This document shows positions 10,514-63,390 of a DNA stretch of 64,000 nt, piece after piece. This DNA comes from Eremomyces bilateralis CBS 781.70. Taxonomy: Eukaryota > Ascomycota > Dothideomycetes > Eremomycetales > Eremomycetaceae. Position 1 is the first letter of the stretch. Every line of letters begins with the position of its first letter. Position numbers and translations under genes: made by a program. The notes beneath the pieces are model-generated. The model saw only the letters and a program-made list of their open reading frames with translations, had not been told where the DNA came from and searched no databases. The DNA is taken from positions 1,531,846 to 1,595,845 of the forward strand of contig NW_022985069.1 in assembly GCF_010015585.1 (NCBI RefSeq), in the 5' to 3' direction.

Positions 10514-12020
10514 AACCTAGCAAATCAATTGTTCTTGTTCAATTATGCCGAGGGCACATCTTCAACTAACGGATGTGACCGCTCAGTTTCTTTCTACCAG
10601 TATCCCGCCTCAGCGCCCGCGCTTTACCAACCGAGATGGGCTTGACGACTGTTCCTCGACCCATCTCGCCGAGATGTAGCACCTCATTTCATCCCTTGCT
10701 GGGGTCAAATTGCGTTGTGGTCTTCCCCTTCATGAGTTACGGAACGGGAGTTAGTGGCTGGTAGTGCTGGTTCCGTCGAACTTTGGGAACTGTTAGGGTA
10801 ATGGTCTGGGTTCTTGAAGGACCTGTCACATTTTGGGTACATACAGAAGATGAGATTGGCAGCAAATTCCCCTTTCAGCAGCGAGGCGAGCGTGAGATCC
10901 GTTACACAGTTGATGCATCATGTTGGCTGCTGAGATGGCTCGGAGGAACTGAATGGAATTCGAAAGACCCTATCCTGCGCATGAAAAGGCAATGTTCATC
11001 AGATTCGTGCGAAAACTTGATAATGCAAGTTTCGGTCGAGTATGGTAAAGGCCCGATTATAGCGAGGTAAATTCGATTATAGAATGTCATTCAAGAATGA
11101 TATCGAGGAGCGACAAATCAAGCCGATACTCACACCAGCTCTGATGTCTTACTACATGCATGCAAAAATACCCGTTGGTTGGATTAAGCTAATCAATAAA
11201 GATGCTCAGACTGGGTAGGGGTGGGCTCGAATCATATTAAGGGGTAGGATTAAGGAGTTATCACGGAACCAGTGCGTTGGGCTTTTCAAAATACACTGTA
11301 CTAAGCAGGTCTGATTCCTATTGAATCAATACGAGTTTACTGTTGGAAATAGAAGCGTGGCATTCAATTAACCTTTGCGAATCGTTTAAAGTAAGTGTGT
11401 AGACGTGGCAAGGGAGTTTGAGTCCTGCGTCTACCTATCGCTCGCCGAAGAATCCAGGAGAAATGGAACGACAAATGCTGCTGGTACAGGCGATGTTTCG
11501 AAATCCTCTTAACTTGCTCCGGGAAGTCACGAAACCCTATGATCCAGGCCGCTGGCAGCCGAAACACACCTGCGACTCCGAGTGGAATGCGCAACGAGAC
11601 CCTGCTACGGAAGTGAAGGGGTGGAAATGGATTATAAAATAGCGTCTCAGGGCGTCTCAGGGCGTCTCAAACCAAGTACAGGGCGAACGCATCACAAGAG
11701 CAGCGATAACCATTTTTGTCCAGCGGGAAACGGGGGGAAGAAACAAAAAGCAGTGGTATATCTCAACGAAAAGTGGAGGGTTCGGCGAAGAAAGGAATGG
11801 GAATACGCTAAACCAAGAAGCCAATAAAGCAGAATGCAAGCGGACCTCTCCAAATGCCCAATGAACAGCAAAAGATAGACAGGTAGATGTCCGGGTTTCA
11901 TGCCCCTCAGATCGTCATCCGTATCTCGTAAATCGTTGAACTCGTCGCCCGGCCATGTTTCCTTCTCGTCTACCACCTCCACCGCCGCACATCGATCCCG
12001 TCTCCGGAACATCGACCGCT
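10514..12020. other. Intergenic between convergent genes; short tandem repeat
   Basis: About 1.5 kb with no supported gene. Three tandem copies of a 10-bp unit (GCGTCTCAGG, the third degenerate at its end) lie near 11641-11670. The short open frames here have no recognisable motif. Confidence 0.5.
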
Positions 12021-14305
12021 CTACGGGTCCTTCTTCGCACTTCGCCTCGTGCTCTGCACCCTCCCCGGCCCCGCCGCCCAACGCATCAACCCCGACGCCA
12101 CCGGCTTCTTCTTTTTCTTCGCCGGCGCCGCCGCCGCCATGGCAGCCGCCGCGGTCGGAGGCATCATCGGATGCGGGGGGATCGGAGCACCCGGGTGCAT
12201 GGGCGGTCCGGGCGGCGGCGGCGGCATCATTGGCATCCCGGGCGGCGGCGGCGGGAAGCCCATGGGGGGCGGGCCGACGGGAGGGAAGGGCATCTTGGAC
12301 TTTGACTTGCTGCCCTTCTTGCCCTTCGAGCCGGGGATGGTGGGCATGCCAAGGGGCAGGGGGGGGAGCATGCCGGGGGGAAATGGATGATGCGCGGCAA
12401 GCTCTTTTTCTTTCTTTTTCGGGTCCTCCATCGGCCATAGCTTCATGGTGATCTCCCAGTCCGGCTTGATCATGGTCTCCCAGACTTGGGGGAGGATGAT
12501 GACGCCGTCCGGACCAAGGAGGTCGTAGTGGCCTTCATGGACGTGCGGGCCGATGACGTCGACGTGGAGGAAGGCTTGCTTGATGAGGTCTTCCATGCCC
12601 TGGATGTGATGTTAGCCACTGGTGTTGCATGTAAAAATGTTGATTAAGGAAACGTACTCTCCATGTCTTGCAAATGGACCAGGGAAACTGGAACTTCCGG
12701 CCGACCGCATCCTTAAATCGGATTGGTGACTCTTTCGGTTTCATCTTCTTGAGCTCTTCATCGGCCGCCTTTTGGGCGGCCTCGGCCTTCTCCTTGGCCT
12801 CTTTCGCCGCCGCCATTTCCTTGTTGTGCGCTTCCTTCGCTTCGTCCTCTTTCTTTTTGAACTCGTCCTCGGCCTTCTTGTGTGCCGCTAGTGCGACCTT
12901 TTTGAATTCTTCATTCTTTTCGGCCACCGCTCTGGCGGCCGCTTCCTTGGCCGCCTGGGCCTTCGCTGCGGCTTCATACTGCTCGTGTCGCTTCAGCATC
13001 GCCTCCTCGCGTTTGGCGGCTTCGTCCTTCTGTGCGAACAGCAGCTCCTCGAGCTTTCGGAGTTTGTCCAGCTCGGCTTGCTTCTTGGCATCTTCCGCTT
13101 GCTTCTTCGCCGCCACCTGTTTCGCTTCCTCCAGTTGAAGCTGCCGCTGCAGCAGCTCTCTGATTTCTTCGAATCGCGGATCTTTAAGGGCCTCTGCGGG
13201 CGCCGATGGGGGCCGCTGAGGCGCTGGTTGTGGGGGAGGCGGTTCGGGGGTGACGGCGTGGGCAGAGGCTGGGGTCGGGGCGCCTGCTGGAGGAGGGGGA
13301 GGCTGTGGGGGAGCAGGCGGGGGACTTCCGCCCGGTGGAGGGTACATAGGATAGCCCGGCGGCATATATGGTGGATATTGTGGATAGTAGTTATTTGGGC
13401 TGTATGCCATCATGTCCATGGCGCCAGGGTGTGGCATTGAATATCGAGGATTTCTTCTCGATTGCTCCCTGAAATAGCCATCCGGGGGCGGTGGGGGTTG
13501 TCGACCACCAAAGGCGTTGGGTCGGCCTGGATCCGGATCGAACGGGTTTGGATAACCGTATGGATCGGGACCTCGAGGGTAAGGAACTAAGGAGTCGGGT
13601 AGGTGTGGAGGAGGGTGAAACGGTGCACCGTAGGGGCCAGACGCCATACTTGGAGCATATGGTGCGGTATTATGCGGGACATGTGACCACTGCGGACTCG
13701 GATGAGGTGGATGCTGAGGTGGCCGGCCAAAGTGGCCGGGGAAGTCGTCCTCGTAATCCAGGCTGTCGGGAATGGAGGTTTGCCTGGATCTCGGCACCTC
13801 CTGATACTCCCGGCGACGACGAGGCGCTCGACCTTGCGCGGAACGGTTTCGCGACCGTGGTGGTGGATCGTCTACGGGGATCTGACGCGACGCTGAACGA
13901 CGTGGTCGTGGAACGTGCGCTGGATGGCGGGTAGGCGCTCGTGGTCGGGATGCTGAGTCGGATGGCTCGATATCGTCCTCTGCGTAACCAACGTTCTCCC
14001 ACTCCTCGTCGTCGTCCACTTCCTCGTCCTCCTCTTCGTCGTCCTCCGCTGAGGCTGAGCTGGTGTATGCTCCTCGAGAAACGTCGACTCCCGATGAGAT
14101 GTCCTCGTCGGAGATAAGGTCGTGCGTTCGTTCGGAGTCGGTGGAGTTACTGAGCGTGATATTCTTCCTATACATACGAATCGCGGAAAGAAGTCAGCCA
14201 GACTGCGCGAAATCATGAGGCTGTTTGAGATGGATGCGGAATAAATTTGGACGCGGAGACAGACTGCAAGCAGCAACGGAAGAAACAGTCAGCTACTCAC
14301 GGCAT
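12021..14305 (-). CDS. Coiled-coil protein with ubiquitin-like domain and Pro-rich tails
   Basis: Best model: complement of 12021-12599, 12658-14167 and 14301-14305, giving 697 residues. The 58-nt intron at 12600-12657 (GTACGT donor) joins the halves of a ubiquitin-like fold: RFKDAVGRKFQFPWSICKTW, then GMEDLIKQAFLHVDVIGPHV and LLGPDGVIILPQVWE, residues about 485-563. I have seen this block in many fungal proteins of unknown role. Upstream are an acidic N-terminus, a long Pro/Tyr-rich disordered part and an Ala/Lys/Glu coiled coil (about 330-480); the C-terminus is Pro/Gly/Met-rich and basic. The first exon is tiny (ATGCC): a 133-nt intron (14168-14300) with GTGAGT donor, GCTGAC branch and TATAG acceptor gives the start MPKNITLSN. 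A simpler alternative starts at the ATG at 14175 with MYRKNITLSN, giving 698 residues. Confidence 0.8.
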
Positions 14306-60217: not shown

Positions 60218-62857
60218 AAGCATTTGATATGTTCTAAGTATTGTTCTAGCGAAGGCATTGATTGTTCCTTTCGAATCCGCATTTCTTACTTTTAGCATGG
60301 CGATTTGATTCAGACGCTGGACATAGATACCCTTTTGACGGCATGGCATTGGAATATGGATATCAACACTCAGAAGATGGATTTCCCCTCACGTGGGCTG
60401 GACTTTTGACATTTTGTAACGAGCTATGACTGAACTTACAACACGCTCTTCAGCGATCAAAACTTCCCTTGCATGGCTGGCTTTCAAAGGAAGGATACGG
60501 ACTGTTTGGCAGAAGCCACCGGCCATCCCTATGATAGGCCATACTTAAGTAGCATATCTAGCTAAGTTAGCTAAAGAAAATTAAATAAATGAACATACCC
60601 TGAGCCATTGCATCCCCGACTTGGTGAGATTTGCAATCATTATTTCATTTCCATCATCGATCGCCATCTCAACCATCTTACATCCCACGGCATCGATGCG
60701 ATATCTCCGCTGCCCCGCTGCCAAGTCGATATTGAACCAAACTCTAAGTCTTCTCAACGGAGCTCTCCTGGTCAGCGATGACGGAGTGATGGCTTGGATC
60801 TGGGTCATGCAATATAAATGCAGTACCACCAGAACTTCCGAACCGAGGGTACAGCACTTCTCGGTTCCCTTGTTTGCTAACGACCATCCCGTCTCTCGTT
60901 CTACAGTTCCCAACAATTCAATTGACTCAATTGAGTGGAACTCTGCTGGGAACTTTGTGGATTGTGATGTGCAAGATATGAATGCTGAATGGACCAAGAA
61001 ACCCTGGACGGAAATCAATATCACATCCGGCCCATCAGTTGGCAGGGCTCACGCCACACCATGGAGGCATGAACGAGATATCCTTGCACTTATTCGTATT
61101 ACCAGCAACTCCATGGTCCCCCTCTTAAGGTCACATAAACCTCTCCTCCGTCACACAACGCCCCAGTCATAGCTCCTAATCCATGGCATTCGGCTGGGAG
61201 CTCAGAGCCACACTCAAACTCTGCTGTGCGATCCTGGAGCTCTTCCATATGAGATGCGGGCAGCCGGGCACACGTTCCTGGATGCTCCCAACTCCGGCCG
61301 GTGTTACAGCCGTGCTATGCACCTGCCGTCCATGATCAACGGGTTGCAACTCACGAAAGCTAACCAAATCACATCACAGCGACCATCACGAGAAAGGCAG
61401 CTGGGGGACGCGGCAGCGAGCATGAGCATGAGACGCCAAAAGCGGGATCGGACAGGATTCACTGCGATGTGGCAGCGGACAGCGCAGTGCGGCCAGCGAT
61501 GAGGTCAACCCAGGATTACCTTCACCTTCGCTCATCAGTTGATCACTAACAGGCATGGCACTCCCGTTGCAGCGTTGCCAGACGAACATCAGCAGGGTCC
61601 GGACTGCGGAGAAATTGTCCGATGGGACCGAGCGCTGAACTGCTCTGTCGGCCTGTCGGTCTGCCCGGATGGTTTCCTAACAAAACCTGATAGAGCCATT
61701 GGGAACGTACATTCATAGTGGGCGTTGCGCTGAGGTTGAAACCGTTTGAGTCTTCTGGATGAGCGAGGCACAGAGCCGCATGTTCGCCACCCAAACGTGC
61801 AGCCAACAAGAAATCCAACACTTTTACCGCCAGTCTGACAGCAATCCTTTCTGGTCGCTTTCCTACCTGCATGACATGACGGTTTGAAGCGAAGGATTTA
61901 CATCTGCATCGAGATCTTAGCCGCAACTTTGTAAACGGTGTGCAAATCTGTCGAGTACGGAACCTGGCCCCGATCATTTGAGTTTTGACCTCTCCGTGAA
62001 GTCCCAGCCACTCCCGGCCCCCAGGTCAGTCGTCAGTCGGCTGACATTATTTGTGTTAGCGGCTACATCGAGATGTGAAAGACAAAGTTCAGAGACAGAC
62101 AGGCAAGTTTGCTGCGATGCAAGCCTCATGCAGTTTCGACGTTTTTCATCACATCGATTCAGCGCCAAAGTTGGGGGAGACTCGACAGGGGTGTGTGGGG
62201 CGACACATTTGGTAGCCTTGTGGCCTTGTGGCCGACAACTGCAATGATTTGAGCAGAGGAGCTGGTGTTAGTTTAGATATTATGACATGAGAGGCTCTCG
62301 CCGGCGTACATCTGGTGCACCGAATTATAAAAGGAGGAATATTCTGATTAGGACTTGTTGGTAAGACTTGAAGCCAGACTGCAGGGTGGTGATGAAGTTT
62401 GTTCACTGACCTGTCCATATTAGTAGATATTGCGTAATTGGAATCTCGAAGATCGCATTAATCGGCTATTACGGCTCAGATAGAGCAGCAGCATAGTAAC
62501 TTAAAGGTTGAATGGGGCCAAGGACCTCTTCTTTTATAAAATATATAAAGTTGGAGTTTTGATACGCCTTTGAATCTCCGGATCCTGACAGTTGCGAGAT
62601 CCAGTTTGTATGGCATCTTAATCCAGACCAAAATTGATAAAAAAAGATTCAGTCCACACTCGCACCATCCCTATTGTCTTCATATATCTAGCTAGACCAT
62701 GTGTCGGATGATGAGGTATGATGCGTGTACCGGAGCGTCGAAAGAACTGAAGGGAATTGTGAGAGAAAGAATCGAAGGATATGTATGGCAAAAACACTAA
62801 CATGACGGTGCTTGAAGTGGCGTTGCGAACAGTGTGTCGAACCATGTCCCCTATCCA
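60218..62857. other. 2.6-kb spacer without a supported gene
   Basis: Between convergent genes. It holds the 3' flank of the SAM/PH gene. Overlapping open frames of 140-180 codons on both strands near 60600-61170 and 61550-61980 have no motifs and unlikely compositions. No RNA gene is recognised. Confidence 0.45.
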
Positions 62858-63072
62858 TTATCCGCCACTTTGAATCCAATCATGGAGTGATTTAATATTC
62901 GTCCGGGATAGCAAAAGAGCCGTGTTGCCGGCGCTTTGGAGCTCATCCGTGGTGCGCTTGACCTTGTCGCATGGCTCATCGGGCCGATGGCAGAATCGGT
63001 GATACGCCTTAGGGCAAGCCGCGGCACGCTTGACCTTGCCGTAGGACTCACCAGGACGATAGTAGAATCGGC
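62858..63072 (-). pseudogene. Two decayed pheromone-repeat units downstream of the ppgA-like frame
   Basis: Just after the stop of the pheromone precursor, in another frame on the same strand, lie two further units: FYYRPGESYGKVKR and, 25 residues later from start to start, FCHRPDEPCDKVKR. They match FCHRSGEPCGKVKR of the intact gene in length, in the R-x-G/D-E core and in the KVKR processing site, and the DNA is clearly homologous. Unit 2 has lost both cysteines; unit 3 has Asp for the central Gly. The two units share a frame but are shifted by one base and lie behind a TGA relative to the precursor. They look like an ancestral multi-copy precursor cut short. Confidence 0.65.
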
Positions 63073-63258
63073 TCACGTTTCCGGGTCAGGTTCGGCCTTG
63101 GCCTTGGCCTTCGCGACGGCCTCGGCGAGGGCATTGGCGGCGCGCTTGACTTTGCCGCAGGGCTCGCCGGAACGGTGGCAGAAGCGGTCGGCTTCGGCGC
63201 AGCCGTAGGCGGTGCCAACGGCGACCGCAGAGGCCAGGAGAAAAGTGATAAGCTTCAT
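63073..63258 (-). CDS. ppgA: Alpha-factor-type sex pheromone precursor, ppgA-like
   Basis: A 61-residue secreted precursor. Residues 1-19 (MKLITFLLASAVAVGTAYG) are a clear signal peptide. Residues 20-25 (CAEADR) are a short spacer with an EA pair, as trimmed by Ste13-type dipeptidases. The core FCHRSGEPCG at 26-35 has the C-x6-C spacing of ascomycete alpha-pheromones (W-C-x3-G-[QE]-x-C, for example Trichoderma WCYRIGEPCW and Aspergillus WCHLPGQGC), with Phe in place of the usual first Trp. It is followed by the Kex2-type site KVKR (36-39), the same processing string as in Neurospora CCG-4. The tail is Ala/Lys-rich. Only one copy of the pheromone is in this frame, and the gene ends at TGA 63073-63075. 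A TATAAA lies upstream. An unrelated small Cys-rich secreted peptide is the main alternative. Confidence 0.72.
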   Translation of the reverse strand: MKLITFLLASAVAVGTAYGCAEADRFCHRSGEPCGKVKRAANALAEAVAKAKAKAEPDPET

Positions 63259-63382: not shown

Positions 63383-63390
63383 CTTTTATA
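63383..63390 (-). promoter_or_regulatory. TATA box of the pheromone precursor gene
   Basis: TATAAAAG on the minus strand, 125-132 bp upstream of the ppgA-like ATG. The leader between them is rich in A and C, as for a strongly induced short transcript. Seen directly; its use is inferred. Confidence 0.5.

Follow-up and report, generated by a model that had tools for sequence, protein, structure and literature searches.

Introduction

The DNA considered here is a stretch of 64,000 nucleotides from Eremomyces bilateralis CBS 781.70 (contig NW_022985069.1, positions 1,531,846 to 1,595,845; hereafter the window). Near one end of the window lies a small frame which had been predicted, from the letters of the DNA, to encode an alpha-pheromone precursor with an unusual core. 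This locus raises the question of whether the frame is indeed a member of the alpha-pheromone family and, if it is, whether the signal that it would encode still belongs to a working pair of hormone and receptor. The reading favored here, to which we give a probability of roughly two in three, is that the alpha-pheromone gene is real and that the Ste2 arm of mating is decaying with one copy of the hormone still intact. Judged by title, none of the papers found to mention Eremomyces deals with pheromones. As a separate observation on the window, positions 12001-14000 stand out among its 32 two-kilobase steps with the highest GC content (0.614) and, at -0.252, the strongest AT skew.

The precursor frame and its gene model

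The predicted frame, with FCHRSGEPCG followed by KVKR, is present and lies on the minus strand, which the original prediction had left unspecified (Table 1). Residues 3-18 of the 61-residue frame have a mean Kyte-Doolittle value of 1.9, and a home-made signal count is passed by the frame as well as by 57 of the 72 relatives described below. The tail of the frame, beyond KVKR, is alanine-rich. It had been suggested that small precursors such as this one are commonly missed in annotation, which is not the case here since the public protein P152DRAFT_471253, an 82-residue hypothetical protein with no gene name, contains the whole frame as its first 61 residues, all of them identical. The intron that this model implies has a branch-like CTAAC preceding its CAG end. 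R1, KVKR, the start and the TATA-like box are all intact, and the gene may therefore be fully active. Candidate Pfam identities for the frame were rejected as they were sub-threshold only (PknG_rubred, E 0.02; DUF6746, E 0.12). PF16919, the accession of this rubredoxin family, appears as a precomputed match in four of the 72 relatives (P0004, P0014, P0021 and P0023), probably through a chance likeness of Cys-rich pieces.

Table 1. Features of the alpha-pheromone locus (window positions) and of related mating genes elsewhere in the genome (contig positions)
Feature	Position	Strand	Basis or remark
Alpha-pheromone precursor frame, 61 codons + TGA	63073..63258	minus	opens public model P152DRAFT_471253
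Hydrophobic N-terminus, probable signal peptide, ~19 residues	63202..63258	minus	hydropathy, home-made count; cleavage site by eye
Intact pheromone core R1, FCHRSGEPCG	63154..63183	minus	matches C-x3-G-[Q/E]-x-C
Kex2-type site KVKR, directly after R1	63142..63153	minus	sequence
TATA-box-like TATAAA, ~130 nt upstream of ATG	63385..63390	minus	consensus alone
Decayed core R2, RFYYRPGESYGKVKR, frame differs from that of R1, both Cys gone	63026..63070	minus	sequence, profile
Decayed core R3, RFCHRPDEPCDKVKR, same frame as R2, central Gly gone	62954..62998	minus	sequence, profile
Intron implied by 82-residue model, 1,036 nt, GTGAGC...CTAAC...CAG	62041..63076	minus	computed, model versus window
Exon 2 of public model, last residues RLTTDLGAGSGWDFTERSKLK + stop	61974..62040	minus	public model versus window
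STE2 remnant	G000:C4:1498704-1499161 (L032:1306-1763)	minus	PF02116 profile
STE3 receptor gene	G000:C36:163267-164158 (L034, L035, L083)		open by eye save one short apparent intron
MAT1-1-1 alpha-box gene	G000:C9:180889-181266 (L033/L082)		MATalpha profile
Candidate HMG box L090	G000:C15:424674-424934		PF00505

Processing in the alpha-pheromone family involves signal peptidase, Kex2, Kex1 and a Ste13-type peptidase. If the present precursor is handled in the same way, it would be secreted and cleaved by Kex2 at KVKR, after which Kex1 and a Ste13-type peptidase would trim the product to approximately FCHRSGEPCG, a peptide in which a disulphide between both Cys residues is possible. Going by what is known of the family, the released peptide would signal through the Ste2 receptor of the mating partner.

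Membership of the alpha-pheromone family

Relatives of the frame were gathered with a 160-residue probe that combined letters of the window with a published motif, two invented variants and linkers, and 72 proteins among 3,028 candidates matched this probe at E<=10. Several of them carry the name pheromone or clock-controlled pheromone ccg-4, and these come from Pseudogymnoascus, Mollisia, Metarhizium, Cordyceps, Colletotrichum and Sporothrix. The unaltered 61-residue frame, used as the query, gave one match among four candidates, which was the public model of the same gene. The 72 relatives contain 261 cores, identified by a pattern that demanded Cys, Gly and Cys so that conservation at these positions is partly by construction; 69 of the proteins have at least two cores and three have one, some of these possibly being fragments. 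Gly after the second Cys is the commonest core ending (130/261).

A profile HMM was prepared from 33 units cut from the relatives, without Eremomyces sequence, the relatives themselves having been gathered with a probe that contained window letters. Among the 1,601 stop-to-stop frames of at least 25 residues in the window, the 61-residue frame ranks first with this profile (53.9 bits, E 8.5e-16), and the frame that holds the decayed cores R2 and R3 ranks second with 51.4 bits overall (15.4 for R2 alone and 34.1 for R3 alone). The next frame in the window scores 7.7 bits, and the best score in 30 dinucleotide shuffles is 10.9 bits. The K-x-K-R arrangement is common to the frame and its relatives, and the homology covers the core, the KxKR site and the alanine-rich spacer. 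When one relative, P0007, was compared with the whole genome at E<=10, it matched this locus only, with two matches (E 6.7e-10 and 1e-4). The family-profile score and this genome search therefore mark the frame, in agreement with the original prediction, as an alpha-pheromone precursor, and as the sole one found. The frame almost certainly belongs to the alpha-pheromone family.

The original prediction had named a bona fide ppgA at another place in the genome as evidence that would count against it; none was found within the pattern and P0007 searches. The pattern searches reached genes with this Cys spacing, an intronless core and a start no more than 700 nt away. The Trp-C-x3-G-x2-C pattern gave 97 matches in the genome versus 94 in a reversed control, and among the 30 of these 97 that were examined five had a nearby dibasic site, none of the five with a signal-like start. 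The C-x3-G-[Q/E]-x-C pattern gave 44 matches versus 35 in the control, the 44 being the frame itself and 43 others. All 43 were examined; a dibasic site within nine residues was present in five, and in none of these five did that frame show a signal-like start less than or equal to 700 nt away. The Pleosporales motif PYG[L/M]P[I/V]G had no exact match genome-wide, and the frame itself is without it.

The first residue of the core and comparison with known precursors

The core had been considered unusual for starting with Phe, on the premise that nearly all known alpha-pheromones start with Trp. This premise does not hold for the relatives tabulated here: the first residue of the 261 cores is Trp in 82, Phe in 59, Arg in 41, Gly in 34 and Ile in 19, and the majority first residue per protein is Trp in 24 of the 72 relatives and Phe in 22, these tallies not being population frequencies as the probe held both Phe-first and Trp-first cores. 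On this tabulation, the idea of Phe as a striking oddity was rejected. All four of the Phyllosticta relatives are Phe-first, and Phyllosticta, which we take to belong to the Dothideomycetes, presumably supplies the only members of that class recognised among the named matches. The Phyllosticta precursors P0019, P0038, P0042 and P0061 together with P0007, which has FCHRVGEPCS three times, resemble the present frame in being Phe-first and in having K-x-K-R and alanine-rich spacers (RAANALAEA). Unlike the present frame, they have kept 2 to 4 cores in one frame.

Phe before the first Cys has also been published, in the Xylona heveae pheromone RFCHLPGQGCSK (PMC6339444), which agrees with RFCHRSGEPCGK of Eremomyces in R-F-C-H, in the central Gly and in the spacing of the Cys residues. 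The same study (Le Marquer et al. 2019, PMC6339444) describes pheromones with two conserved Cys residues in 13 Dothideomycetes that are not of the Pleosporales type; the precursors of these non-Pleosporales Dothideomycetes and of Xylona have two conserved Cys in the core, as does the Eremomyces frame. The pipeline described in the same source required at least three repeats, whereas one intact core is in frame here. PpgA, Ppg1 and Ccg-4 of Eurotiomycetes and Sordariomycetes have a signal peptide, C-x3-G-[QE]-x-C and Kex2 processing; the present frame has the same core, and a signal peptide and Kex2 processing are predicted for it as well. In contrast to the Phe-first frame with one intact core, many of those pheromones are Trp-first and their precursors usually contain several copies.

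Two decayed cores downstream of the intact core

The DNA contains three tandem cores, of which the open frame holds one, while the two decayed ones share another frame. The spacing of 116 nt from R1 to R2 breaks the frame and the spacing of 72 nt from R2 to R3 keeps it. The majority of the three copies translates as RFCHRPGEPCGKVKR. Compared with this majority, and in numbers too few to test selection, R1 has five base departures of which four are silent, R2 has six of which four change residues and all are C>T or G>A, and R3 has four of which two change Gly to Asp. Small as these numbers are, they would suggest that one copy has been kept and that the other two are decaying. The C>T and G>A departures of R2 are also the pattern that repeat-induced point mutation or deamination would leave. 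The ancestral precursor probably had at least three tandem copies, and a frame change together with point changes would then have disabled two of them, with one intact copy left.

The long 1,036-nt intron of the public model spans both R2 and R3. Other ways of splicing were considered by listing the GT-AG introns of at least 40 nt which start in or at the end of exon 1 and end at or before R3. None of these would add R2 to the transcript, and 16 would add R3, five of them retaining R1. All donors of these 16 introns are weak (GTCGCC, GTTGGC, GTCAAG and GTCGCG), and R3 is without its central Gly; such splicing may still occur. The presence of two decayed cores downstream of the intact one, in the other frame and inside the intron of the model, is new here.

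Receptor and mating-type genes

A search of the genome with the STE2 profile PF02116 reported one match at E<=10, with an E of 0.012, and none at E<=0.001; one candidate passed the first look, and none of 14 control genomes matched, none of these being known to hold STE2. A divergent STE2 could have been missed by this search. The match is a remnant in which an N-terminal piece is followed by a frame change and an in-frame stop; next comes a piece that resembles the first helix, and this leads directly into the last helix and the tail, the helices being named by profile positions. With X placed at the breaks, the N-terminal piece covers profile positions 2-52 (E 1e-4) and the C-terminal piece positions 251-279 (E 4e-4; 246-279 in another run of the profile), and the pieces joined by X score 35.3 bits against a curated cut-off of 27.2. 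About positions 54-245 of the 280-position seven-helix profile are missing. The STE2 identity of the remnant rests on the Pfam profile because a protein search with the remnant, which covered 167 candidates, gave no relative at E<=10. Splicing around the frame change and the stop might in principle be conceivable, but the missing stretch of the domain is beyond what splicing could mend, so that, as read from this assembly, the remnant cannot give this strain a working Ste2. The state of the receptor gene is new here.

The same genome gave strong matches for STE3 (E 3.9e-58), for MATalpha (E 1.3e-26; in MAT1-1-1 the match covers profile positions 54-175 and lies in an open frame of 394 residues, which would be preceded by another exon) and for P_proprotein, the Kex2-type P domain (E 9.5e-28), and the profile search therefore works on fungal exons. 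PF00505 had nine HMG-box matches, two of which form one intron-split gene on contig C15 (L090) that we liken to the MAT1-2-1 box. Another HMG-box match, L085, lies on contig C9, 158 kb from MAT1-1-1; we take it to be similar in kind to L090, and it was set aside. If L090 has been assigned correctly, the two mating-type genes would occur together, unlinked, in this strain, which could then be self-fertile.

Favored reading and alternative explanations

STE2 is a remnant in this genome and both STE3 and the MAT1-1-1 alpha box are open, which together suggest that it is the alpha-pheromone/Ste2 arm that is probably decaying, plausibly in a self-fertile lineage. We infer expression of the gene, self-fertility and relaxed selection as parts of this reading. 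In Huntiella, unisexual species are reported to have six alpha-factor repeats each versus an average of 9.6 in heterothallic species (PMC10182648). What the DNA itself shows is the homology, together with the three cores, their lesions and those of the receptor, and the remnant state of the receptor gene; the lesions are known from one strain and from assembly only, and could be strain-specific or errors. If the STE2 break is private to this strain, the alpha-pheromone gene would be fully working in a species that still uses Ste2, with intact partners and with one core being enough. The intact R1, KVKR and N-terminus agree with such a gene, as do the three of 72 relatives in which the pattern found one core (fragments possibly among them) and some powdery-mildew homologues for which one potential mature peptide is described, though their Kex sites are not clear (PMC10569646). 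The STE2 lesions are, however, of several kinds (frame change, stop and loss of most of the domain), which suggests age, and two of the three pheromone cores have decayed too; we consider a fully working system rather unlikely. Errors of assembly or sequencing, either in the receptor or in the frame change before R2, would instead hide a multi-copy gene and an intact Ste2. We consider this quite unlikely: although the lesions come from a single assembly and the public model bridges the region by a long intron, R2 and R3 have changes of Cys and Gly residues besides the frame change, the STE2 lesions are several and differ in kind, and the assembly, which is in 62 contigs, gives STE3 and the MAT alpha box without such breaks.

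Two further possibilities concern the role of the peptide rather than the state of the gene. The peptide could have become independent of Ste2 and now signal in growth or development through another receptor, the sole STE2 found being broken, which we regard as very unlikely. Alternatively, the secreted product could be a Cys peptide that is processed by Kex2 and serves outside mating, as a hormone, an effector or a toxin-like peptide, and that resembles alpha-pheromones only in form. Kex2-processed repeat proteins are diverse (PMC7329392), their functions are described as largely unknown (PMC9769878), and the usual receptor is broken in this genome, all of which would suit a non-mating peptide. 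Against this, the homology takes in the core, KxKR and the alanine-rich spacer, the relatives include proteins named pheromone, and the pattern and P0007 searches of the genome found no other alpha-pheromone candidate; we consider such a coincidental resemblance very improbable. A real alpha-pheromone gene with a decaying Ste2 arm thus remains the preferred reading.

Significance

Taken alone, the frame is one more alpha-pheromone. Taken with the STE2 remnant, it would be a Dothideomycetes intermediate of a loss that is seen at a later stage in Ambrosiella, the intermediate being one in which the receptor is broken, the extra hormone copies have decayed and one copy is intact. Ambrosiella is reported to have alpha-pheromone receptors with missing helices and no alpha-pheromone gene, and is listed there as primary homothallic (PMC13037118). 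The two are alike in having a receptor gene from which membrane helices are missing, an ascomycete genome of ~27 Mb and reported sexual reproduction (PMC13037118); they differ in that the pheromone gene is wholly absent from Ambrosiella, as described in that source, whereas it persists in Eremomyces with one intact core. Such an intermediate would let one study whether a mating signal or its receptor goes first, and also whether the leftover peptide is still made. In E. bilateralis, the loss of this hormone and its usual receptor may be under way.
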